Source: Halothiobacillus neapolitanus c2
GTDB lineage: Bacteria > Pseudomonadota > Gammaproteobacteria > Halothiobacillales > Halothiobacillaceae
Direction: 5' to 3'
Length of the DNA stretch: 64,000 bases
NCBI RefSeq assembly: GCF_000024765.1
Contig: NC_013422.1
Coordinates: 701,501-765,500 of the forward strand
The notes under the pieces are model-generated. The model was not told the DNA's origin and did no database searches. It saw nothing but the letters and a program-made list of their open reading frames with translations. Made by a program: the position numbers and the translations under genes. Below are positions 843 to 59,868 of the stretch, piece by piece. Position 1 is the first letter of the stretch; each line of letters opens with the position of its first letter.

Positions 843-3272
843 TTATCGGAAAAAATTCAAAATCGGGTTGAGTGGATTGCCGTTTGTCCCGCCGCCCCGA
901 TCGGTATTCCCGGAGTCGGTCGAGTTGCCGTTGCAATCGAGAATGGTTTTGGGTTCGAAACCGCTCATAAATGGCATCAGGATGCCGGGGCACTGGCTGG
1001 GAACGCGCGCCTGCTGCGCCACATCGACATTGACGAAATCGATGCCTTTGGGCGGTGTCATGTCCCGTGGCTTGTTGTAGAGCGGTTTGAATGCCGCTGC
1101 CCATAAAGGCAATGCACCGCTGGCACCGGTCAGGCTGGTGGGCTTGTCGTCATCGCGACCGACCCAAATTACCCCGACCCGATTGCCCGTAAAGCCGGCG
1201 AACCAGGCATCCCGGCTGTCGTTGGTGGTACCTGTCTTGCCGGCTACACCCACCGACGGGGGAATGGTGCGGTTCAAGGCGCGTGCCGTGCCGTTATTCA
1301 CCACACCTTGCATGGCGTATTGCAGCAGATAGAGCGCATCGGGATCGGCCACTTTGGTGACGGTCAGCGGGTAACGCGTCAGCGGTTTGCCTTCGGCATC
1401 CACCACACTGCGAATGGCGCGCAGCGGACTGTAAAAGCCGTCTGAGGAGAGCGTTTGGAAGATTTGTGCGACATTAAATGGACTCATCGTCATCGAGCCG
1501 AGCAGCATCGAGGGATAAAACGGCTTGATGTCTGGTCCGCCCAGTCGGTGCAACATGGCCGATACATTATCCAAGCCAACGCTCAAGCCAAGACGGATAC
1601 TCGGCACATTGCGCGATTCGGCCAAATCAGTGTACAGCGGCGTGGGGCCGAGGAATTTACGGTCGTAGTTTTCCGGTTTCCAGGGTTTTGAGCCGGGCTG
1701 ATCGACGGTCAAGGGGCTGTCGTCCAGTGGCGTGATCAGTGAGTACTTAGCCGGATCGGAGAGCGCTGTCAGGTAAATGGTGGGTTTGATCAGCGAGCCG
1801 ATCTGTCGCTGGGCATCCAAAGCGCGGTTGTAACCCTCATAGGTTGGATTGCGCCCGCCGATCAACGCTTCGACTTCACCGGTACCGATCGAGGTGATGA
1901 TGCCCGCGGTCTCCAGGGAGTCGGGCTTGTAATGACGGGCTTTTTCAATCGCATTCAGTGCTGTGACCGAGTGCTCAAGCGCTGCCTGAACACGGGGCTG
2001 CATGGTGGTGAAAATGCGTAACCCTTTGGTTTTGAGGTCTTCGGGGTTGTATTGCTGCGACAGTTGCCGTTGCACCAGATCCAGGAACGCGGGATGGGGC
2101 GAGGTCGTGCCTTTTTCCTTGAGTACGCCCAGTGGCTTTTGTTTGAGTTCGCCCGCTTCGGTTTCCGAGATCAGGCCGTTGTTGGCCATAAGATCAATGA
2201 CGGTGTCACGACGATCCTTTGCGCGTTCAGGGTTTCGACGGGGATTGTAGTACGACGCGCCCTTGACCATGCCGACGAGCAGGGCGATTTCCTCGGGCCG
2301 CAGTTCGTCGACCGGCCGGCCGAAATAATAGCGCGCGGCCAAGCCAAAACCGTGAATGGCGCGGCTGCCGTCCTGACCGAGGTACACCTCGTTCAAATAA
2401 CCTTCGAGGATTTTATCCTTGGAGTAGTGCCATTCCATTTCCAGCGCCATGATCATTTCTTCGAGCTTGCGCTTGTAGGTGCGCTTGGGCGTGAGAAACA
2501 GATTCTTGGCCAGTTGCTGGGTGATGGTGCTGCCGCCTTGCACTTTATGACCGCTGACAATATTGACCAGCAGCGCGCGCAGGACCGCGCTCGGCACCAC
2601 GCCGTGATGATAATAAAAATCCCGATCTTCGACCGTGATGAGCGTCTTGATCAGGAGCGGCGCGTCTTTCTGTACCTGTTCCACATTGAGCAGCACGCGG
2701 TCTTCATTGATGTCCGGGTAGAGTTGGCCGATCGTCATCGGTTCCAGGCGGATGATACCGAGGCTGTTGCCCTTGTCGTCGTTGACTGCCTTGACCCGGT
2801 TATCGATGAATTGAACCCGAATCTGCCTGTCCGTTTCGTTGCCATCCGGGAAATCGAATGCCCTGCGGTGCAGGCGGATTTCATTGCCGACTCGATCATA
2901 TGTTCCCGTTTCGGTGAGTGTGTCTCGGTCGCGATAATGCAGACTGGTGAGTTCGTCCACCAGTTCGCCGGGTGAGAGATGTTGACCGACATAAATTTCT
3001 TGTGGCGCGGCATAAACGGTGGCGGGCAGCTTCCAGAGCGTGCCGGAAAAGCGATCGACGACGCGTTGATTCAGAAAATACGCCCAGATGCTCATCAGCG
3101 CAGTGAGCACCAGTACAGCGATAATAACGATGCGCCAGAAAAGACCACGCAGGCTGAAACGACCCACACGAACGCCCTTCGAAGCGCTGTTGTTGGCTGG
3201 TTTTTTACCGTTAGAACCTTTGCGGGCTGGGGGTTTTTGGGCTGGTCGAGCTGTTTTTTTTGTTTGCGCCAC
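843..3272 (-). CDS. mrcB: Penicillin-binding protein 1B, bifunctional glycosyltransferase/transpeptidase
   Basis: Class A PBP that polymerises lipid II and cross-links peptidoglycan from the inner membrane. Order: a Lys/Ala-rich cytoplasmic tail, one membrane segment at about residues 42-65, a UB2H-like region, a GT51 glycosyltransferase with the catalytic VEDRDF motif near residue 215 and GGSTITQQL, then a transpeptidase with SLIK (near 493), SRN (near 553) and KTGT (near 679). The start is a GTG preceded by GGGTGA at 6 nt; the same frame is open to an ATG at 3335, but that region lacks a ribosome-binding site. The size (809 aa) is usual for PBP1B. A TPR lipoprotein lies downstream as a likely partner. 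The C-terminus is a low-complexity Gly/Asn/Asp tail. Confidence 0.96.
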   Translation of the reverse strand: MAQTKKTARPAQKPPARKGSNGKKPANNSASKGVRVGRFSLRGLFWRIVIIAVLVLTALMSIWAYFLNQRVVDRFSGTLWKLPATVYAAPQEIYVGQHLSPGELVDELTSLHYRDRDTLTETGTYDRVGNEIRLHRRAFDFPDGNETDRQIRVQFIDNRVKAVNDDKGNSLGIIRLEPMTIGQLYPDINEDRVLLNVEQVQKDAPLLIKTLITVEDRDFYYHHGVVPSAVLRALLVNIVSGHKVQGGSTITQQLAKNLFLTPKRTYKRKLEEMIMALEMEWHYSKDKILEGYLNEVYLGQDGSRAIHGFGLAARYYFGRPVDELRPEEIALLVGMVKGASYYNPRRNPERAKDRRDTVIDLMANNGLISETEAGELKQKPLGVLKEKGTTSPHPAFLDLVQRQLSQQYNPEDLKTKGLRIFTTMQPRVQAALEHSVTALNAIEKARHYKPDSLETAGIITSIGTGEVEALIGGRNPTYEGYNRALDAQRQIGSLIKPTIYLTALSDPAKYSLITPLDDSPLTVDQPGSKPWKPENYDRKFLGPTPLYTDLAESRNVPSIRLGLSVGLDNVSAMLHRLGGPDIKPFYPSMLLGSMTMSPFNVAQIFQTLSSDGFYSPLRAIRSVVDAEGKPLTRYPLTVTKVADPDALYLLQYAMQGVVNNGTARALNRTIPPSVGVAGKTGTTNDSRDAWFAGFTGNRVGVIWVGRDDDKPTSLTGASGALPLWAAAFKPLYNKPRDMTPPKGIDFVNVDVAQQARVPSQCPGILMPFMSGFEPKTILDCNGNSTDSGNTDRGGGTNGNPLNPILNFFR

Positions 3273-3338
3273 CGAGTTCACCCACACTGATACACTAGAA
3301 CCATAATTAGTGACCAGTTTAACAGCATCTGGCATGAA

Positions 3339-3362
3339 GGGTGCCTCGAAAGACCGTGATCC
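3339..3362. repeat. Solo, degenerate end of the palindromic repeat family
   Basis: GGGTGCCTCGAAAGACCGTG resembles the outer end of the dispersed repeats seen at 18.4, 24.4, 51.4 and 52.8 kb (GGGCACCTCGAAATACCCG and GGGTGCCTCGAAAAACC). No partner end is found within 200 bp, so this is probably a decayed fragment just upstream of mrcB. Confidence 0.35.
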
Positions 3363-3478
3363 TCGTTCGATGCGTCATTCGTCACGAACAGTCGGTTCTT
3401 CAATTCGATCTTATTCACGTGATGCCCTTTTGCCTGAGCACATATAAATTTCCAGTTCAAAAATTTCTGAAGGAATAA

Positions 3479-5014
3479 ATGGTTATGAATTCCCCCGTTA
3501 CACAGGCGCTACCTCTGGAGCAATTCAAGCGACATCTGCATGACCAATATGGCGAAGTGGTGCATTTGCAGACCCATATTTCCCACGTGTTGCTGGCCGG
3601 GCCGCACGCGTACAAAATCAAAAAACCCATGGATTTCGGCTTTCTCAATTTTACCGACCGCGACCAACGGCGGTTCTTCTGCCATGAAGAAATCCGCCTG
3701 AATCGGCGGCTCGCGCCCGATCTGTATCTGGGTGTGGTCGGGCTTGATGCGGATGGACGACTGGTGGAAACGGCCAACACGCAAATCGAGCCGATGGTGC
3801 ACATGCGTCGTTTTGATCAGAATGATCGCCTGGATAACTACGCGCAGACCCAAGGCTTGGATGACGTGCTGATCGACGATCTGGCCCGGCAAATCGATCA
3901 ATTTCACCAGAATGCAGCCATCGCGCCGAAAGATAGTCATTTCGGTACCCCTGAAACGGTTTATTTCCCAATCAATCAGAATTTCGAGCAGATTCGCGGC
4001 TTTCTGACCGATGATGCCGATCAAACCCAGATCGACCGCATTGAGACGGCAAGCGAAGCGGCTTTTCTGGCGCTCAAGCCCACCATCGCAGCGCGCAAGA
4101 GTTCCGGCCATGTGCGCGAGGGACACGGCGATATGCATTTGGGCAATATTGCCCGAATCAACGGCAAGGTGATGATTTTCGACGGCATCGAGTTCAACGA
4201 AGATTTCCGTTGGAGCGATACGGCCAACGATCTGGCGTTCCTGCTGATGGACCTCACCGATCGACAGTTTCTCGGTGCCGCGCGTCGTTTGTTGAGTGTT
4301 TACCTCGAATCCAGCGGCGATTATGAAGCCCTGCCGCTCATTCGCTTCTATGCGGCCTATCGAGCGATGGTGCGCGCCAAAATCGCCTTGTTCGGCATTC
4401 GCCCCGATATGAGCGCCGATGAGCAGGCAGGGCAGTGGGCCATCTTCCGCCGTTATGCCGATCTGGCCGAACAGTTCCTGGCGCCGACCGAGGCCTCGCT
4501 GTGGATTACGGTGGGCTTCTCGGGGAGTGGGAAATCTTTGGCGTCGATGGAGCTGGTGCAATCATTGGGCGCGGTGCGAGTGCGCTCGGATGCCGAGCGG
4601 CTGCGTCACTTCCCGGAACGTGCCATGCGCTACACACCGGAGGCAACCAAGTACGTTTATAACCACTTGATCGATATCGCAACGATTGGATTGAACGCCG
4701 GTTGGCCGATGATCATCGACGCCACGTTTCTGCGTGCGGAGCATCGTGCGTTGTTCGAGCAACTGGCCCAGACCCTCGGTTTCCCGTTCCATATTTTATT
4801 CATCGAATGCGATGCACCTACGTTGCGTCGCTATCTGCGCGAACGCACGGCACAAGGCGGGGATATTTCGGAAGCAAACGAGGAAGTGCTCGAAGCGCAA
4901 TTGCAAAAACTCCAGCCGCTGACGACCGCCGAACACGCCTACACTTATCGCTTGCAATGCGATACGTCATTTGCCGGTCAAATTGCCGATATTGTCTGGG
5001 CAAAGACAACCTGA
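3479..5014 (+). CDS. Fusion of an aminoglycoside-phosphotransferase-like kinase and an AAA-type P-loop kinase
   Basis: Protein of 511 residues made of two kinase-like halves. Residues about 1-330 carry the APH-type catalytic signature HGDMHLGN near 216 and the metal-binding IFDGIEFN segment near 234. Residues about 340-511 carry a Walker A motif GFSGSGKS near 345 and resemble small P-loop kinases (AAA_33). This is the COG2187-COG0645 fusion found in many proteobacteria; its substrate is unknown, and aminoglycoside resistance should not be assumed. An AGGA box at 3471 could serve either the ATG at 3479 or the one at 3485, the latter with better spacing. It stands alone on plus, divergent from mrcB. 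Confidence 0.88.
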   Translation: MVMNSPVTQALPLEQFKRHLHDQYGEVVHLQTHISHVLLAGPHAYKIKKPMDFGFLNFTDRDQRRFFCHEEIRLNRRLAPDLYLGVVGLDADGRLVETANTQIEPMVHMRRFDQNDRLDNYAQTQGLDDVLIDDLARQIDQFHQNAAIAPKDSHFGTPETVYFPINQNFEQIRGFLTDDADQTQIDRIETASEAAFLALKPTIAARKSSGHVREGHGDMHLGNIARINGKVMIFDGIEFNEDFRWSDTANDLAFLLMDLTDRQFLGAARRLLSVYLESSGDYEALPLIRFYAAYRAMVRAKIALFGIRPDMSADEQAGQWAIFRRYADLAEQFLAPTEASLWITVGFSGSGKSLASMELVQSLGAVRVRSDAERLRHFPERAMRYTPEATKYVYNHLIDIATIGLNAGWPMIIDATFLRAEHRALFEQLAQTLGFPFHILFIECDAPTLRRYLRERTAQGGDISEANEEVLEAQLQKLQPLTTAEHAYTYRLQCDTSFAGQIADIVWAKTT

Positions 5015-9370: not shown

Positions 9371-9458
9371 GGATGGATTGTCTGGTTATATTTCTGATTA
9401 TATTTTGGGATGAAATTTTTTCGTTAGGACTTGGTCGTTGAAACGGTACCGTGATGCT

Positions 9459-10250
9459 TTATAACTGACAGATCGCCAATTCGAAAGCGACATCGTGATT
9501 GACCTGAAAAGGATGCCCTGTCTGGCGGTCGAGTCGCATGAAGCGGACGATGACGCGATGTTTGCTGGCGCTAATTTCTGGATACACATTGCTGCCATCA
9601 TCCAAAAGAACGCGAACCAGCTGATACGGTGTTCCCAGTTCCAGATTCAATTGAAAAAAGCCATCCTCCGCCGTTCGGATTTCCGGAGCTACGCTGTTGC
9701 GGATGAGGTCGATGACCAGCTCATTTGCTCTGCGGATGGTGGCGAGGGGTTCCAGCCACTCCAGAAAGTCTTCCCTTCGCTCTGAATAAGGCTGCGCCAG
9801 CCAGTAGTGCAACGCTGCCAAGTCGAAAACACACAAGGCGCCGGGGATCGAAGCGCGCTGACGAATGGCATTGATCAGCTCGTGTTTTTTCAGGTGTGCC
9901 CCCGGTTGCGTGTTCATCCGGTGGAGTTGATCGAGCAATTGCGCCTGCTGATCCAGCAACTGATTCAGCATTTCGGCATTGACCTGCGGCGTGTGCGCTA
10001 CCTGAAGCAGCTTGGCCTGTTGGCGCTCCAGTTCCTTGATGAGTTCCCGTTTAACATCAATTCGCCCGAGCACATCGGTGGCTTCGATCAGAATGAGCAT
10101 CGCACACAACGAACCCTCGGCAGTTTCGTCTGCCAAGTGCTGATCGAAGCGATCGAACAGATACTCCAGCCTGAGACAGGCACGAATCCGTTCATTCAAA
10201 GGTTGTTCGAAGTTTTTCAGAAAGCTTGCCCCGGTAAACTGTTCTTTCAT
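9459..10250 (-). CDS. zapD: Cell division protein ZapD
   Basis: 263 residues from the ATG at 10250, chosen because ZapD proteins start about 13 residues before the FEQPLNERIRACLRLEYLF motif; the frame stays open to a TTG at 10292. The family landmarks are present: the N-terminal helical domain with ELIKELERQQ, the mid motif RASIPGALCVFDLAALHYWL, and the C-terminal beta domain ending in HDVAFELAICQL. ZapD binds the FtsZ C-terminal tail and bundles protofilaments at the Z ring. In enterobacteria it lies between coaE and yacG; here it precedes minC, another FtsZ regulator, on the same strand. Confidence 0.92.
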   Translation of the reverse strand: MKEQFTGASFLKNFEQPLNERIRACLRLEYLFDRFDQHLADETAEGSLCAMLILIEATDVLGRIDVKRELIKELERQQAKLLQVAHTPQVNAEMLNQLLDQQAQLLDQLHRMNTQPGAHLKKHELINAIRQRASIPGALCVFDLAALHYWLAQPYSERREDFLEWLEPLATIRRANELVIDLIRNSVAPEIRTAEDGFFQLNLELGTPYQLVRVLLDDGSNVYPEISASKHRVIVRFMRLDRQTGHPFQVNHDVAFELAICQL

Positions 10251-18108: not shown

Positions 18109-18366
18109 AATAGTAACCACCTAATGATTTTTCCAGTTAATTATATGCGAAATAAACAGACGGTTGGGTGTCCGCTTCGCTCTTTGCCTGGCACATACAT
18201 GAGGTGCCCAGTCGTTGTGATCCCGTCTTTTCCACATCAATCAGATCTTCTCAATGAACCAATGAGTCGATCTAATCAAAAACATTATATAAAAAATATG
18301 CAGATATATATAAATATTAGAAATATTGCGCTGGAAAAATTAAGGAAAATCGATCGTCAGTCATCA

Positions 18367-18475
18367 GGGAAGCTCGAAAAACTCGTCATTCCCGCGTAGG
18401 CGGGAATCCAGCGCCTTGAATTTTCTGGGTTCCCGCTTTCGCGGGAACGACGAATCACGGTATTTCGAGGTCCCC
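18367..18475 (+). repeat. Palindromic repeat, copy A (dRS3-like core)
   Basis: About 109 bp. It contains two internal hairpins: ATTCCC-N8-GGGAAT at 18388-18407 and GTTCCCGC...GCGGGAAC at about 18429-18448. The ends are imperfect inverted repeats of about 25 bp (GGGAAGCTCGAAAAACTCG and, reversed, GGGACCTCGAAATACCGTG). The first palindrome fits the neisserial dRS3 consensus. The rest of the gap 18109-18688 holds an AT-rich stretch at 18270-18350 and the pyrG promoter; no gene is seen there. Confidence 0.85.
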
Positions 18476-18520
18476 ATCAGTGCCAGATGAGCGAACGAGG
18501 TGCGTTGCTGACGGGGCAAA

Positions 18521-24343: not shown

Positions 24344-24391
24344 TCTTGCGTCGCTTGCCGCGTTTTGCCGGCGAATACTTGTTTTATAGTT

Positions 24392-24501
24392 GGGCACCTC
24401 GAAATACCCGTGATTCGTCGTTCCCGCGAAAGCGGGAACCCAGAAAAATCAAGGCGCTGGATTCCCGCCTACGCGGGAATGACGGGTTTTACGAGCTTCC
24501 C
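24392..24501 (-). repeat. Palindromic repeat, copy B
   Basis: Full-length copy of the 110-bp element, inverted relative to copy A, with both internal hairpins and both ends (GGGCACCTCGAAATACCCG and, reversed, GGGAAGCTCGTAAAACCCG). It lies between the convergent ends of ispF and the GGDEF gene. Confidence 0.88.
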
Positions 24502-46974: not shown

Positions 46975-49347
46975 ATGGTGCGCCTGCCTAACCTGATGTC
47001 CCATAGTTCGCTCCGCTGGGCTTTGGCATACATTGTCATCGCTTCACTGTGGATCGCCTTGATACAGTGGTTGCTCAGCAGTCTCGGTGGTGCGCGCTGG
47101 GTCATTTCCCCTGCTGGTTTGGTTGTTGGCGGCGTATTTGTGCTCGTCACGGCTTGGTTGTTGTTTTTATTGCTTGAGCGCAACCAGCAGGGTCCTCTGG
47201 CCGAGCCGAATGATACTCACTCGCGGGGTTCCGACCCAAAATCGTGGTGGAGCGCATTGGTTATCCTTATTGCGTTCACGTTACTTGCGCAGTTGTTCAT
47301 GGTTTCTTACGCCACGCGCGAATATCGACCGGTTCTCCTCAATCAGGCGCAAACCGAACTGACCTCGCAGTTGCGTCTGCACAGCAAACTGATTACCGAC
47401 TGGTTAACCGAACGAAGCCAAATCGTCGATAAACTGGCGGCACAGTCGGACGCGCTGGCAAATCGGATACGCAGCAGCCAGGCACAACCCGTCCCGCCCT
47501 CCGGCAGTACCTTTCCTTCATTTGTCGCCCTGATTCAGGATGGCCGATTCCATACCATTACCTTGTTTGATCCCGATCACGTCAAGAAGCTTAAATTCGG
47601 CTCGAACCTGATTGCCAAAACGCCGGATAATCTATTCGAGCGGGCGGCTGCCACATCCAAAGTGCAATTTGCCTGTGTGTTCGCACCGGGCCAGAGCGGT
47701 GGTGATTGTTTCTGGGTATTGCCCGTTTATCTGAGCCAGTCTGAGGTGAGCGGCGGCCCGTGGTATATCGTGCTGGCTGCCATGCTCAATGAAAGCGGCC
47801 TGGTGCAGTCCATGCCAGCCGGAGAACCCTTGCGGTTAGAGAACGCAGTGCGCACCTTGCTCCTGCTGGCACAGGGGAATGATTCCGCAAAATCGTGGAT
47901 GACAACGCCGTTGATCGACGATTTTTCGCAATTGAGCGAACCGCAGATGAGTTCACGCGTTGAACCGGTAAGCAAAAGTGATCTTGACTGTTTCCGCAAG
48001 TCACCTGCATTCCTTTCCCTTCAAGCGCGATTGAGCCCATACCCGCCGGATGCTGACGTATTGAAGAGCACTGCCAACGGACAGATCTATTGCCAAGGGC
48101 ATACGCTGCTCTATGCCAGCACACAAGTCCCGCAGATCAATGGCCTGCTCTGGGCCGCTACCACGCAGGACATCGTGCTCGATCCGCTACGCAAGACGCG
48201 CCAATGGCTTGCCACGGCTTCCCTGATCGGCGTGTTTACCCTGTTGATTGCCTTGTTCCTGTTCTGGCGCATCATGCGGTTGCAGCGAGCCAAAGTGCTG
48301 GCCGGTCTGCAGCGTGAGCGCCATCAATTGTCCCAGCTGTGGGATTCCATGCCCGCAATGGGGCTTGCCATTGTCAACCCCACCGATTGGCACATCAGCA
48401 TGGTCAATCAAAGATGGATGCAACTATTCCACGATAGTCAGGAATCGTTGCTGGGGCGGAGCTTTCTGGATGCGATCTCACCGGTGACGGGGCTAAATAC
48501 CGTCGAGAACCTGACTTCGGGCGATCCCAAACTGCTGGAAGACATCCACACCGGTTTGCGTGATGAGGTCAGTTTGATACGCAGAGTACAGACGGGCGAA
48601 TCGAGCCAGAGCTGGGTGCGCTTTCATATTCGCGCGCTCAAATCGAGTCGCCATGACGCCGAAGGCCTCATCGTGGCGGCCGAAAGCTTGGGCGACAGTA
48701 TTGAGCAAGCAAACGAGCTCAAGGCAGAGCGTGATTTCTGCCGCCTGACTGCAACCTTCTCCCAGCCGCAACCGAAACCACCCGTAGCGACGCCGATGCC
48801 GGGCAGTTCATCCGATGACGCCTCAGAACCAGAAATCGAAATCGCAACGGCGGTTGAAGTCAGTCGACTCACCCCGTTGGCGGAGCAGGTCATCGAGCAA
48901 AGCAGCTTGCTCGCCATATGCCTGTACACCAACTGGCCAGAAGTCTGGTCGAGCTCATCTGAACTGACCGGGCCGCAGCTTGAACAGCAGGAACATGTAT
49001 CCTTCGAATGCGTCGGCTGCACCGCCCCCGTCCGTGAAATCGCCAATCAAGTCGCACAAATGGGCCTGATCGACCGCGTACTGGTCGCCCAGACCCCCAT
49101 GTTCATCGACGACCACGCCCGCAACACAACCATCAGCGGCACACTCCAGAACGAGCTGATCGAACAGTTGAAGCAATACCCGGTCGGCGCTTTAGCCATC
49201 GTCCCCATCCCCGCAGTAAACGAAGGCGACCCCGTACGCGCCCTGATCGTATTCGGCGAAGACAACCTACGCTTCACCGAACCGGTCAAAGCCTCACTGC
49301 TGAGCCTGTTGAAAGCACTGACCATACGGCTTGATGAGGAGGAATGA
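46975..49347 (+). CDS. Membrane sensor with PAS-like domain but no recognised output domain
   Basis: 790 residues. Three N-terminal hydrophobic helices (about 14-35, 42-64 and 89-111) precede a large extracytoplasmic region (about 112-405) that may be a Cache-type sensor. A fourth helix lies at about 411-436. A PAS-like domain follows (about 445-560, PAMGLAIVNPTDWHISMVN), then a Pro/Ser linker and a GAF-like C-terminal module (about 640-790). No histidine kinase, GGDEF, EAL or methyl-accepting module is visible. It follows gltX by 8 nt. The second Met (MSHSSLRW) is a possible start. It may act with a separate partner; that is inference. Confidence 0.7.
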   Translation: MVRLPNLMSHSSLRWALAYIVIASLWIALIQWLLSSLGGARWVISPAGLVVGGVFVLVTAWLLFLLLERNQQGPLAEPNDTHSRGSDPKSWWSALVILIAFTLLAQLFMVSYATREYRPVLLNQAQTELTSQLRLHSKLITDWLTERSQIVDKLAAQSDALANRIRSSQAQPVPPSGSTFPSFVALIQDGRFHTITLFDPDHVKKLKFGSNLIAKTPDNLFERAAATSKVQFACVFAPGQSGGDCFWVLPVYLSQSEVSGGPWYIVLAAMLNESGLVQSMPAGEPLRLENAVRTLLLLAQGNDSAKSWMTTPLIDDFSQLSEPQMSSRVEPVSKSDLDCFRKSPAFLSLQARLSPYPPDADVLKSTANGQIYCQGHTLLYASTQVPQINGLLWAATTQDIVLDPLRKTRQWLATASLIGVFTLLIALFLFWRIMRLQRAKVLAGLQRERHQLSQLWDSMPAMGLAIVNPTDWHISMVNQRWMQLFHDSQESLLGRSFLDAISPVTGLNTVENLTSGDPKLLEDIHTGLRDEVSLIRRVQTGESSQSWVRFHIRALKSSRHDAEGLIVAAESLGDSIEQANELKAERDFCRLTATFSQPQPKPPVATPMPGSSSDDASEPEIEIATAVEVSRLTPLAEQVIEQSSLLAICLYTNWPEVWSSSSELTGPQLEQQEHVSFECVGCTAPVREIANQVAQMGLIDRVLVAQTPMFIDDHARNTTISGTLQNELIEQLKQYPVGALAIVPIPAVNEGDPVRALIVFGEDNLRFTEPVKASLLSLLKALTIRLDEEE

Positions 49348-49498
49348 GCTAACACAGTTCATTCGCGTAATTTTATGATTCATTAAAAAGTTATTTGATC
49401 GTAATCTGATGAAAATATTTAAGTTATTAAAAAAATTGATTAGGTTGGAGCAATATGAAAAAGTTTATTTCGTCTAAATCACGTTGTACGCGATAATC

Positions 49499-49840
49499 AT
49501 GAAGCCACTAGGGATAATGAATAAAGAGGAACTTAAACAGGCTTTGGTAAGGGCGATAGTCCTTGAATATCAAAACTCTAATTCATTTGGCGCAATGAAT
49601 TGGGGGCATGATGCGCCCCCATCAATGTTTGTGGCTAGGAATAACCGGTTTAGTCTGGCGAAATTATATGCCAGAAAATATGATCCGGTAAGTAATCTCT
49701 TATTTAAGAGAAAGTTGCCATCTGGTAAAGAATGGGAAGGTACAAAAGTTTTGGTTTCTAACCCAATCCATGCGTGGGTTGAAGGGGAGTGGTTGCATAT
49801 TGGGTGCACTGTTCCAACAAGGCATTGTCGTGGCTTATAA
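49499..49840 (+). CDS. Cassette gene 1, hypothetical protein
   Basis: 113 residues from the ATG at 49499; the ATG at 49517 would give 107, and neither has a good ribosome-binding site, which is common in cassettes. The sequence begins MNKEELKQALVRAIV after the second Met, has a basic centre (RNNRFSLAKLYARKYDP) and an end with conserved-looking WVEGEWLHIG. No family was recognised. Base composition is much more AT-rich than the core genes, which points to foreign origin. It ends 3 nt before the first attC site. Confidence 0.55.
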   Translation: MKPLGIMNKEELKQALVRAIVLEYQNSNSFGAMNWGHDAPPSMFVARNNRFSLAKLYARKYDPVSNLLFKRKLPSGKEWEGTKVLVSNPIHAWVEGEWLHIGCTVPTRHCRGL

Positions 49841-49843
49841 GGT

Positions 49844-49948
49844 GTATAACATGGCGCTCAATCCGACCCACCTCCGCGGTGTGCTTTTTGTGCAAAATTC
49901 GCACAAAAAGTACACCGCTCCGCCGGTCGGCTTAGCTGGGCGTTGGGC
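49844..49948 (+). other. attC site 1
   Basis: GTATAAC at 49844-49850 (one mismatch to RYYYAAC) and GTTGGGC at 49942-49948 (matches GTTRRRY) border a 105-nt palindrome. The arms carry CCGACC/GGTCGG, GCGGTGT/ACACCGC and TTTTTGTGC/GCACAAAAA around an AAAATTC loop, with unpaired bases as in attC hairpins. Cassette excision would cut between G and T of GTTGGGC. Confidence 0.8.
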
Positions 49949-49957
49949 GTCGAAAGA

Positions 49958-50293
49958 ATGAACGGTTCACACATCAAGTATCGTCTCGGCCTTGGCAGTC
50001 CTTTGCTGCGCCGTTCGTTCTGGGAAACCACAGACCGAAGGCAGCTACACATTCTCATCATGCGGTTTGCTCAGAAGCAGCACTTGCTATCTGGTAAGGC
50101 AAAGCCCAGCTTCATTTGGCGCCGGCGTCGCTTGGAGGCTGTCGCAGTATTTGAGCGCCGCTTCGGGCCTGTGCCGGCCGTGTTTAGGGCAGCAACGTTA
50201 CCGAGGAAGCTTTCGTTATACAGCACGGAAGGGCGGCACATTTGGCCGTTTGCCGCCCAACCAGCGCTTCAAGCCGGCAGTCACGCGGCTTAA
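49958..50293 (+). CDS. Cassette 2 open frame, doubtful
   Basis: 111 residues from an ATG at 49958 that lies 15 nt into the cassette. It is rich in Arg and runs into the attC site (last codons QPALQAGSHAA), as cassette genes often do. Another frame (49992-50330) is about as long, so coding cannot be chosen by eye. No family was recognised. The cassette may be non-coding or carry a gene on either frame. Confidence 0.3.
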   Translation: MNGSHIKYRLGLGSPLLRRSFWETTDRRQLHILIMRFAQKQHLLSGKAKPSFIWRRRRLEAVAVFERRFGPVPAVFRAATLPRKLSLYSTEGRHIWPFAAQPALQAGSHAA

Positions 50294-50307
50294 GCTAGGC
50301 GTTATGT
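50255..50307 (+). other. attC site 2
   Basis: GCCCAAC at 50255-50261 matches RYYYAAC exactly, and GTTATGT at 50301-50307 matches GTTRRRY with one mismatch. Between them GCTTCAAGCCG pairs with CGGCTTAAGC with one extrahelical C, the classical short attC design. Length 53 nt. Confidence 0.85.
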
Positions 50308-50329
50308 TCCATCAATGGAGGAGTAAATA

Positions 50330-50917
50330 ATGAGCACTGAGGCACGATTACGGGAAGCAATCGAAGTCGGCGAGGTATTGAAAGTAGTTTACGGTGGTGG
50401 CAGCCAGCCTGGTGCTATGAGGGAGGTGGCACCTATAAGCATTGAGAACGGGAAAGTGCGTGCGCGTTGTTTCACTTCTAATGCAGTGAAGTTATTTGTG
50501 ATTGAAAAAATCACGATACTGCAAGAAGCAAATAGTGTATCCGCAGTCGAATGGAATCCCGACGCCGAACAGGTCCCTCGCTATCAATTAATTAACGATC
50601 TTTCCGAAAAAGAAATAGACTTCTTATTGGCCCTTGGGTGGCATGTTGAATCTGATAATAATTGCCTAAGCCTGCACAGGCGATTTAAAAACGGGAAGCC
50701 TATGAAAGGCTCAGATGTGTCAATTGATTATGAGGAATATGCTTACGATTTAGTTGTCGGGTTAGATGGAGAACTACACGAAGAAAATCGAAGAAAACGT
50801 CAGCGGCCTTGGTCAGTCCGAGGCAAGAATCAAGATACCAGATCCTATGGAAGCCTGGATAAGGCAGCTGGGCTATTCCTTGAATGGGCCGAGTCATTGT
50901 CCCCATCGAAATCATGA
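50330..50917 (+). CDS. Cassette gene 3, protein with WYL-like N-terminus
   Basis: 195 residues with a strong ribosome-binding site (GGAGGAG, 7 nt before the ATG), unusual for a cassette. The first 65 residues (RLREAIEVGEVLKVVYGGGSQ, then REVAPISIENGKVRARCFTS and KLFVIEKITI) resemble the ligand-binding WYL fold that occurs in transcription and defence regulators. The rest (about 70-195) has SEKEIDFLLALGWHVESDNNCLSLHRRF and an acidic centre and was not recognised. No DNA-binding domain is visible. A standalone WYL-type protein could sense a nucleotide-like ligand; this is inference. Confidence 0.6.
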   Translation: MSTEARLREAIEVGEVLKVVYGGGSQPGAMREVAPISIENGKVRARCFTSNAVKLFVIEKITILQEANSVSAVEWNPDAEQVPRYQLINDLSEKEIDFLLALGWHVESDNNCLSLHRRFKNGKPMKGSDVSIDYEEYAYDLVVGLDGELHEENRRKRQRPWSVRGKNQDTRSYGSLDKAAGLFLEWAESLSPSKS

Positions 50918-50933
50918 AAACGCTAATAATGGA

Positions 50934-51002
50934 ACATAACTAGGCGCCTCACCCGACCAAAACCGCGATGCGGTTTTAGTCGGGTGAGCTTGGTCGTTAG
51001 CT
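50934..51002 (+). other. attC site 3
   Basis: ACATAAC at 50934-50940 and GTTAGCT at 50996-51002 (one mismatch each) surround an inverted repeat: CTCACCCGAC and AAAACCGC pair with GCGGTTTT and GTCGGGTGAG, with one extrahelical base on each side and a GAT loop. It ends the recognisable cassette array. Confidence 0.82.
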
Positions 51003-51042: not shown

Positions 51043-51075
51043 ATGAAGCCCATCACATGGAACCCGGAAAAGTCA
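51043..51075 (+). pseudogene. Toxin gene remnant of a toxin/CopG-antitoxin pair
   Basis: The first codons read MKPITWNPEKS, which is how many small toxins paired with this antitoxin type begin (the BrnT-like class; motif MK..WN..KN). The frame then runs into the half repeat (copy C) and on into the antitoxin gene instead of a toxin body of about 90 residues. The toxin sequence TGGAACCCGGAAAAG overlaps the repeat sequence GGAACCCAGAAAAA, so the join may have used this short homology. Confidence 0.5.
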
Positions 51076-51125
51076 AGGCACTGGATTCCCGCCTACGCGG
51101 GAATGACGGGTTTTTCGAGATTCCC
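51059..51125 (-). repeat. Palindromic repeat, copy C (half element)
   Basis: Contains the ATTCCC-N8-GGGAAT palindrome and one outer end (reversed, GGGAATCTCGAAAAACCCG), but lacks the other hairpin and end. Oriented as copy B, it lies between the toxin remnant and the antitoxin gene, and opposes copy D 300 bp away. Confidence 0.85.
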
Positions 51126-51141
51126 ATTTGGGAGGTCCAAA

Positions 51142-51414
51142 ATGAGTAGGCTGGATAAAGAAGAGCAAGAAATTCTGGATGCATTTGATACGGGTGATTT
51201 GAAGCTGTCGCCAGACAGTGAAGACAGGAAACTGCGGCATCAACAATACGCCGAGGCTATGTTCAAGAAAGATGCCCGTATTAACATCAGACTATCCTCC
51301 AAGGATCTTAGGGTGCTACAGAAGAAAGCCCTGGCAGAAGGCATCCCCTACCAAACGCTTGTTGCCAGCATTCTTCATAAATATGTGGAAGGTCGCTTGC
51401 ACGAGGATAGATAA
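51142..51414 (+). CDS. CopG/BrnA-like antitoxin (ribbon-helix-helix), orphan
   Basis: 90 residues with GGAGG 6 nt before the ATG. It begins MSRLDKEEQEILDAFDTGDLK and ends in a ribbon-helix-helix: ARINIRLSSKDLRVLQKKA then EGIPYQTLVASILHKYVEGRL. This is the common antitoxin partner of small BrnT-like toxins, normally encoded directly after the toxin. Here the toxin is reduced to about 10 codons, so the antitoxin is likely an orphan regulator. It is flanked by inverted repeat copies C and D. Confidence 0.88.
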   Translation: MSRLDKEEQEILDAFDTGDLKLSPDSEDRKLRHQQYAEAMFKKDARINIRLSSKDLRVLQKKALAEGIPYQTLVASILHKYVEGRLHEDR

Positions 51415-51427
51415 TTAAGGAATCTCT

Positions 51428-51537
51428 GGGAATCTCGAAAAACCCGTCATTCCCGCGTAGGCGGGAATCCAGAGCCTTGATTTTTCTGGGTTCCCGCTTT
51501 TGCGGGAACGACGAATCACGGGTATTTCGAGGTGCCC
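51428..51537 (+). repeat. Palindromic repeat, copy D
   Basis: Full-length copy, oriented as copy A, with both palindromes and both ends intact (GGGAATCTCGAAAAACCCG and, reversed, GGGCACCTCGAAATACCCG). It starts 14 nt after the antitoxin stop and could serve as its terminator through the hairpins. Confidence 0.9.
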
Positions 51538-51639
51538 AGATGAAGCTTCAACTGCCACTGTTTTTTTTGAATCAAAAGATTAGGGTCTCAGAAAAATTTA
51601 TTTTCGGCATTTATGAGCTAGCGCAATGAGGTTTTCATT

Positions 51640-52197
51640 ATGAGAACTGTGACAATTAAACCCACCGACATTCTCGATTACTGGTATTCCGATTTCATGC
51701 AGAAGCACTGGTTCGCTTCGACACCGGCATTGGATGATGTGATCAGGGAAAAGTATCAATCGTTGTGGGAGCGGGCTGCGGCGGGCGAACTCGATCACTG
51801 GCAGGATTCGCCCGAGGGGGCGCTGGCGTTGGTGATTGTGCTGGATCAGTTTCCGCTCAATATGTTTCGCGGCAAGCCGGAGAGTTTTCGCACGGAACGA
51901 AAGGCCATTGATGTCACGTTGAATGCGTTGAAAAAAGGATTCGACAAGCAGTTGAGCAAAGACCGGTTGAGCTTTTTGTTCATGCCGTTGATGCACAGCG
52001 AGATACTCGAAGAGCAGGACTTGTCTGTCGCGCTGTTCCGTCGGTACGGGCTGACGGGAAACATCAAGTTTGCGGAACACCATCGGGAGCTCGTGCGAAA
52101 GTATGGCCGATTCCCGCATCGCAATGCCATTTTAGGGCGGGAAAGCACCCCGGCGGAAGTCGCGTATCTGGCTTCGAGGGATGCCTTCAAGGGGTGA
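51640..52197 (+). CDS. DUF924 family protein
   Basis: 185 residues. Begins ILDYWYSDFMQKHWF and has LALVIVLDQFPLNMFRGKPESF near residues 60-82, FLFMPLMHSEILEEQDLSV and HRELVRKYGRFPHRNAILGRESTPAE, all typical of DUF924, an all-helical TPR-like family of unknown function. It may end an older locus interrupted by the accessory DNA. No partner is evident nearby. Confidence 0.9.
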   Translation: MRTVTIKPTDILDYWYSDFMQKHWFASTPALDDVIREKYQSLWERAAAGELDHWQDSPEGALALVIVLDQFPLNMFRGKPESFRTERKAIDVTLNALKKGFDKQLSKDRLSFLFMPLMHSEILEEQDLSVALFRRYGLTGNIKFAEHHRELVRKYGRFPHRNAILGRESTPAEVAYLASRDAFKG

Positions 52198-52942: not shown

Positions 52943-53303
52943 GTTTAATTATTCGTGCACAAAAATTTAGGCCTTCTAAGCAGAAATTCAATAGCTACCG
53001 GATAACACAAATAAACGAATTCAATTGGTTGTGTTTCAGACCGCTGCAATACGATACTGGTGCTCGGCGCGAGTTGCGACCGCATCAGAATTGAGCAGGC
53101 GTTTATTTCCAGAGTGTCAACTGTTAGCCCTTTTGGTGTATTGGCAATCATTCCATCACGATCATGGTGCCATCGAGGAAAGTGTCCCAAGGTGGGGCCG
53201 TTGTCGTCAATGTGGTTGCCGTGCTGTTATGGCTGGTTCCGGATCGAGCGGGCGCTGGTAAGCCGTAAACCAATGGGTTCTGCGGACTGAAGCGGCGATG
53301 TCA
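52943..53303. other. Gap without a recognisable gene
   Basis: About 360 bp between the MITE and the YhiN-type gene. A short plus-strand frame near 53150-53260 encodes a hydrophobic end (VVVNVVAVLLWLVPDR), possibly the remains of a membrane protein, but no start or domain could be named. Nothing else was recognised. Confidence 0.45.
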
Positions 53304-59608: not shown

Positions 59609-59719
59609 GGGCACTTCAAAATGCCTGTGATTCGTCGTTCCCGCAAAAGCGAGAACCCAGAAAAATCAAGGCGCTGGATTACCGCCTAGGCGAGAATGAC
59701 GGGTTTTTTCGAGATTCCC
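59609..59719 (-). repeat. Palindromic repeat, copy E (degenerate)
   Basis: Same orientation as copy B, with both hairpins recognisable but several substitutions (GCGAGAACC, ATTACCGCC and GCGAGAATG break the stems). The ends are GGGCACTTCAAAATGCCTG and, reversed, GGGAATCTCGAAAAAACCCG. It is probably the oldest copy here. Confidence 0.8.
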
Positions 59720-59868
59720 TTGAGATATTCAAGGAAGCTTTGAATAGCTCCACCTTGTCATTTTTCTCATGAGCAATCACTTTGACTATCGTTCATGGTG
59801 CTGCATCCCCAAGTGCTTCTGATTTGATCAGAGATTCCTGCACTTCACCTGCAAGGGGTTTGTGATGC

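Follow-up and report, generated by a model that had tools for sequence, protein, structure and literature searches.

A short array of gene cassettes lies in the chromosome of Halothiobacillus neapolitanus c2 with no integrase gene beside it, and the question it raises is how the cassettes came to be there. Was the site once a full integron that lost its integrase gene, or were the cassettes brought by an integrase from elsewhere to a place that was never an integron? We analysed a 64,000-nt stretch of contig NC_013422.1 (positions 701,501 to 765,500, forward strand), called the window here, and all coordinates without a contig label refer to it. A sequence-only reading of the window had proposed a three-cassette array without an integrase at 49484-51002, and our analysis supports this proposal. 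We classify the array as a CALIN, a group of attC sites without integrase, and give a probability of roughly 0.8 to its being a degraded chromosomal integron, that is, a CALIN still carrying its attI.

attC sites

All three attC sites lie on the plus strand, site 1 at 49844-49948 (105 nt, GTATAAC ... GTTGGGC), site 2 at 50255-50307 (53 nt, GCCCAAC ... GTTATGT) and site 3 at 50934-51002 (ACATAAC ... GTTAGCT). They were scored with a PWM comprising both 27-nt attC arms and the stem, which was trained on 52 attC sites from class 1 integron plasmids (L038-L042) and from arrays of the same genus, all outside the window. Over both strands of the 64 kb, sites 2, 1 and 3 took the three top ranks with scores of 47.0, 45.3 and 31.6, versus 22.2 for the runner-up. 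A structured covariance model of 42 attC sites (R2), built on a hand alignment in which the one extrahelical base was entered as a gap, matched sites 2 (35.9 bits, E 5.9e-6) and 3 (25.4 bits, E 1.2e-3) in the window, where everything else had E >= 1. R2 missed site 1 because of its length of 105 nt and a T/C mismatch within the L stem. The left half of site 1 was recovered at E 0.005 by R1, a model that was kept sequence-only because RNAalifold on the arm alignment yielded no pairs, and site 2 was also recovered in a whole-genome attC model search. The positions first read from the letters thus proved exact, and attC models of our own found all three sites (PWM) or two of them (R2). Of the two outcomes that would have spoken against the sequence-only reading, neither occurred, since attC models hit the sites and the site in relatives is either empty or filled with other cassettes.

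A plain stem-plus-core scan was too blunt for this purpose, as it placed sites 1 and 3 high and site 2 merely 33rd. An Rfam scan over the whole window returned 6S RNA alone (RF00013, 60964-61148, minus strand, 89 bits).

Cassettes

The G^TT crossover points fall at 49483, 49942, 50301 and 50996, and the start of each cassette is complementary to the R'' core of its own attC at 6/7, 7/7 and 7/7 bases for cassettes 1, 2 and 3, respectively. For cassette 3 the complementarity extends along the arm to 13 of 14 positions. All three cassettes thus have the limits that the integron rule of G^TT plus start/R'' complementarity prescribes, and each attC site is preceded by an open reading frame on the plus strand, as had been claimed.

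Cassette 1 (49484..49942, plus strand, 459 bp, GC 45%, limits by G^TT) carries an ORF of 113 aa at 49499..49840 that had zero matches in Pfam, NCBIfam, PHROG and PADLOC; structure prediction without an alignment gave a pLDDT of 40 and was of no use. A relative with 70% aa identity lies in another member of the genus, inside an array next to intI (G007:C1:2761425-2761739). DNA homology between the two cassettes starts at the CGTT crossover, and their attC sites differ. Cassette 2 (49943..50301, plus strand, 359 bp, GC 58%, limits by the crossover rule) holds an ORF of 111 aa at 49958..50293 with its stop inside its own attC. Searches of Pfam, NCBIfam, PHROG and PADLOC gave no family match for it, and a search of 187 genomes gave no informative homolog, only a weak 34% partial match with 4 stops. 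The cassette 2 ORF may be non-coding.

Cassette 3 (50302..50996, plus strand, 695 bp, GC 46%) encodes a protein of 195 aa (50330..50917) of the phrog_8498 family (PHROG search, E 2e-34). The N-terminal 75 or so residues of its structural model (pLDDT 85) aligned locally in Foldseek with the WYL domains of BrxR/CapW at E 3e-4, and the protein is predicted on this basis to have a WYL-type SH3-like barrel. This WYL-type domain starts near residue 14, and the N-terminal winged-helix of BrxR/CapW is absent; the Pfam WYL model gave no match in the protein, and PADLOC reported no defence system in the region, only a weak WYL. The earlier statement that none of the cassette genes has a firmly known function holds, with family assignment limited to phrog_8498 and the WYL-type domain of cassette 3.

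The whole cassette 3 unit, gene and attC, is ~88% identical in nucleotides to a stretch of a Leucothrix MAG contig (L076 3961-4672), which has its own counterpart of attC site 3 (4604-4673, E 6e-7) and further attC sites and cassettes around the unit. This match came from the full genome collection; among 369 genomes of the class, cassette 3 was found in H. neapolitanus c2 alone. A relative with 34% identity to the protein occurs in Methylococcus with attC sites on both sides, and further relatives adjoin phage genes or recombinases. The WYL-domain protein of cassette 3 is of a family that prophages carry as well, and a role as nucleic-acid sensor or phage-related accessory gene is plausible for it. 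Cassettes of the array recur elsewhere as units, cassette 3 whole in Leucothrix and the cassette 1 gene with a different attC in its genus relative. A distant blastn search of the region against plasmids gave no match.

Integrase genes and other attC clusters

No integrase gene had been seen in the window, and a TIGR02249 search bore this out. A whole-genome search for intI, proposed as a check, uncovered remnants and no intact integron integrase, with no match over the cut-off; every copy found is broken. At locus A the gene is split by a REP-like element and lacks approximately residues 167-272, at locus B it is cut after about 46 aa, and a third remnant at 296 kb spans about 25 aa. Several other members of the genus have an intact intI and large arrays.

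The attC model found five clusters only across the 2.58-Mb genome, which indicates few false positives: locus A at 82-92 kb (minus strand), locus B at 1783.5-1791.5 kb, the array in the window, and clusters at 296 kb and 2203-2204 kb. Judging from their translations, cassette ORFs at locus B, the locus with the truncated intI (L010 9263-11764), resemble dihydrofolate reductase, isochorismatase and VOC proteins, and these cassettes adjoin conjugation-type and SSB genes. In the last of the five clusters (L067 2940-4257; G000:C1:2202939-2204256) a porin-like ORF of 365 aa, unusually large for a cassette, lies between two attC sites.

The left edge of the array

The sequence-only reading had reported no attI in view. 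We found a degenerate attI-like sequence at 49356..49483 on the plus strand, which extends between the remnant of an intI start codon (CAT on the reverse strand) and the G of the crossover point at 49483. Full-length global alignment gave z 5.5 with the attI of locus A in the same genome and z 6.5 with that of G002:C21, a sister-species integron that is intact, and TCGTCTAAATYACGTT at the crossover is common to this stretch and the matched attI. Its alignment score of 91 was the best among 11,293 control windows, the next being 73 and 71.5, both of them out-of-register alignments at this very position, and then 68.5. The attI of the genus comes in two types, and the left flank aligns with the locus-A type; the second type, GTTATACACC..., was ruled out as a match (z -0.4). 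The identity is moderate only, and with local scoring an unrelated AT-rich stretch at 52950 outscores 49356-49483. Because of this local score we stop short of certainty and consider the stretch very probably homologous to attI of the locus-A type.

Flanking genes and the same site in relatives

To the left of the array lies a gene for a 790-aa membrane protein with weak Cache/PAS Pfam matches (46975..49347, plus strand), which is conserved in all ten genus genomes searched, and to the right a core gene with a DUF924 domain (51640..52197, plus strand, Pfam 1.7e-58). The two are syntenic in two relatives, G001 and the sister species G002, where gene names were read from translations alone. The comparison with relatives for empty sites and cassette swaps, also suggested earlier, was informative in both. 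In G002 the left flank is alignable to 49480 and is followed by a different, two-cassette array with attC sites at 3112-3174 and 3634-3729 (L059, reverse complement) and then by an RHH/RelE-like pair; the core of its site is mutated to G^CTATG. G001 has no array, and its interval (L058, reverse complement, 2530-4430) holds a DGQHR-type (DndB-like) gene together with another ORF, which suggests that insertions of more than one kind may favour this interval as a hotspot.

A MITE-like sequence starting CTGTAGAAAAA follows directly after the last attC at ~3728 in the G002 array (L059, reverse complement) and at ~2797 in L066. It is shared by these two arrays, which belong to separate species and occupy different loci.

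Right of the array, and not part of a cassette, is a CopG/BrnA-like antitoxin ORF (51142..51414, plus strand, Pfam CopG_antitoxin 1.5e-6) between inverted REP-like copies at 51059-51126 and 51427-51494 (68 nt, 96% complementary). The orphan antitoxin and the two inverted copies may form a composite mobile unit at 51059-51494. The REP-like element, ~110 bp with the core ATTCCCGCGTAGGCGGGAAT, occurs in the window at 18366-18476, 24390-24501, 51428-51538 and 59609-59720 and on L009 at 9434-9545 and 9940-10047, and one copy interrupts the integrase gene of locus A. We take the element to be similar to the Neisseria dRS3 repeat.

Discussion

The array had been singled out as the best place in the window for an undescribed system, an expectation that our results do not sustain, as a CALIN is a known kind of array. 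A complete integron has a functional intI and an attI next to its first cassette; the former is lacking here, and the latter is present as judged by homology only. Given the degenerate attI at its left edge, the array is better interpreted as what remains of an integron after the loss of intI, and not as cassettes dropped at random; the platform here probably began as a full integron, from which intI was deleted.

How might such an array have formed? An integron platform would have lain between the PAS-like and DUF924 genes in the common ancestor of H. neapolitanus and the sister species. Its own IntI, or an IntI acting in trans, would have inserted circular cassettes singly, with the folded bottom strand of attC recombining with attI between G and TT. 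Deletion of intI down to its start codon would have followed, and the array would now be frozen, barring an IntI supplied in trans. Transcription of the cassette genes would come from upstream and run through them one after another. What we show directly are the attC sites, the cassette limits, the lack of an intact intI, the differing content of the site in relatives and the cassette homologs; capture by IntI, the loss of intI from the site, present immobility, read-through expression and any function of the genes we infer. Some observations weigh against this history, namely the failure of R2 to find site 1, the moderate identity of the attI match and its lower rank under local scoring, the mutated core of the G002 site and the possibly non-coding cassette 2.

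Several alternatives bear on this history. The palindromes could be transcription terminators or REP-like repeats behind ordinary genes, over-read as attC sites, and REP-like inverted repeats do lie close by (51059-51538); this explanation is already refuted by the conserved positions of R, L and spacer in sites that rank 1-3 in 64 kb, by the crossover complementarity of the cassette starts and by cassette-exact homology within other integrons. An alternative that we consider unlikely is that the site never was a full integron, and that a trans-acting integrase inserted a cassette at a non-attI chromosomal site of the attG type, with others accumulating behind the first attC. Integration at attG is documented, as PMC12444791 reports in citing Loot et al. 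2024, the genome had other integrons, and zero intI coding sequence is left at the site. Against this stands the left flank, whose alignment with the locus-A attI covers the full length, start codon of intI and crossover included (z 5.5-6.5, best of 11,293 windows). Moreover, the sister species uses the same site with different cassettes, and integration at attG is said to be widely dispersed (PMC12444791).

The locus-A type of the attI would also fit a piece of a larger array, from locus A or B, that was moved here with its attI end by general recombination or transposition. This origin is very improbable, since none of the three cassettes has a second copy in the genome (one own-genome match each), and the array makes no use of the attC type most common at loci A and B. 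A broader reading, which we consider rather improbable, is that the PAS-like/DUF924 interval is a recurrent exchange site of the genus, into which integrases encoded elsewhere keep bringing cassettes in trans even though the array itself has none, and that cassette 3 founds an undescribed WYL-only family carried by prophages and integrons, possibly a sensor of single-stranded DNA or phage.

The degraded integron that we favor adds to a series of decay stages within one genus, from intact integrons through an intI broken by a repeat and a truncated intI to an attI without integrase. Comparison of the site with that of the sister species provides material on whether integrase-less arrays stay frozen or undergo editing in trans. 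Cassette 3, present at ~88% identity in a member of another order, gives direct evidence for the movement of cassettes with unknown function between distant environmental bacteria.

Among known systems, the array conforms to the CALIN of IntegronFinder, which requires two or more attC sites and no adjacent IntI and which outnumbered complete integrons by 2961 to 2760 in one survey (PMC9024848). Like these, it has at least two attC sites with no adjacent IntI, is chromosomal and contains few cassettes; unlike them, it keeps a recognisable attI-like left edge. In Xanthomonas, integrons with inactivated intI occur together with position-conserved CALINs that lost intI (PMC12444791), and the genus studied here likewise has genus-wide sedentary integrons, repeated inactivation of intI and CALINs at conserved chromosomal loci. 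The loci differ, as the site here is the PAS-like gene/DUF924 interval and those in Xanthomonas are ilvD, lamG or secF, and here the two species under comparison have different cassettes. Pseudogenes make up nearly a third of intI genes according to Nemergut et al. 2008 (PMC2426708), and the broken genes at loci A and B and the remnant at 296 kb correspond to these, whereas intI at the window locus is gone and not merely mutated. With the class 1 mobile integrons of plasmid loci L038-L042 the array shares its attC architecture, and it differs from them in having no intI1, no resistance genes and no plasmid or transposon around it. What is less common about this CALIN is its recognisable attI together with a swap of cassettes at a fixed site.
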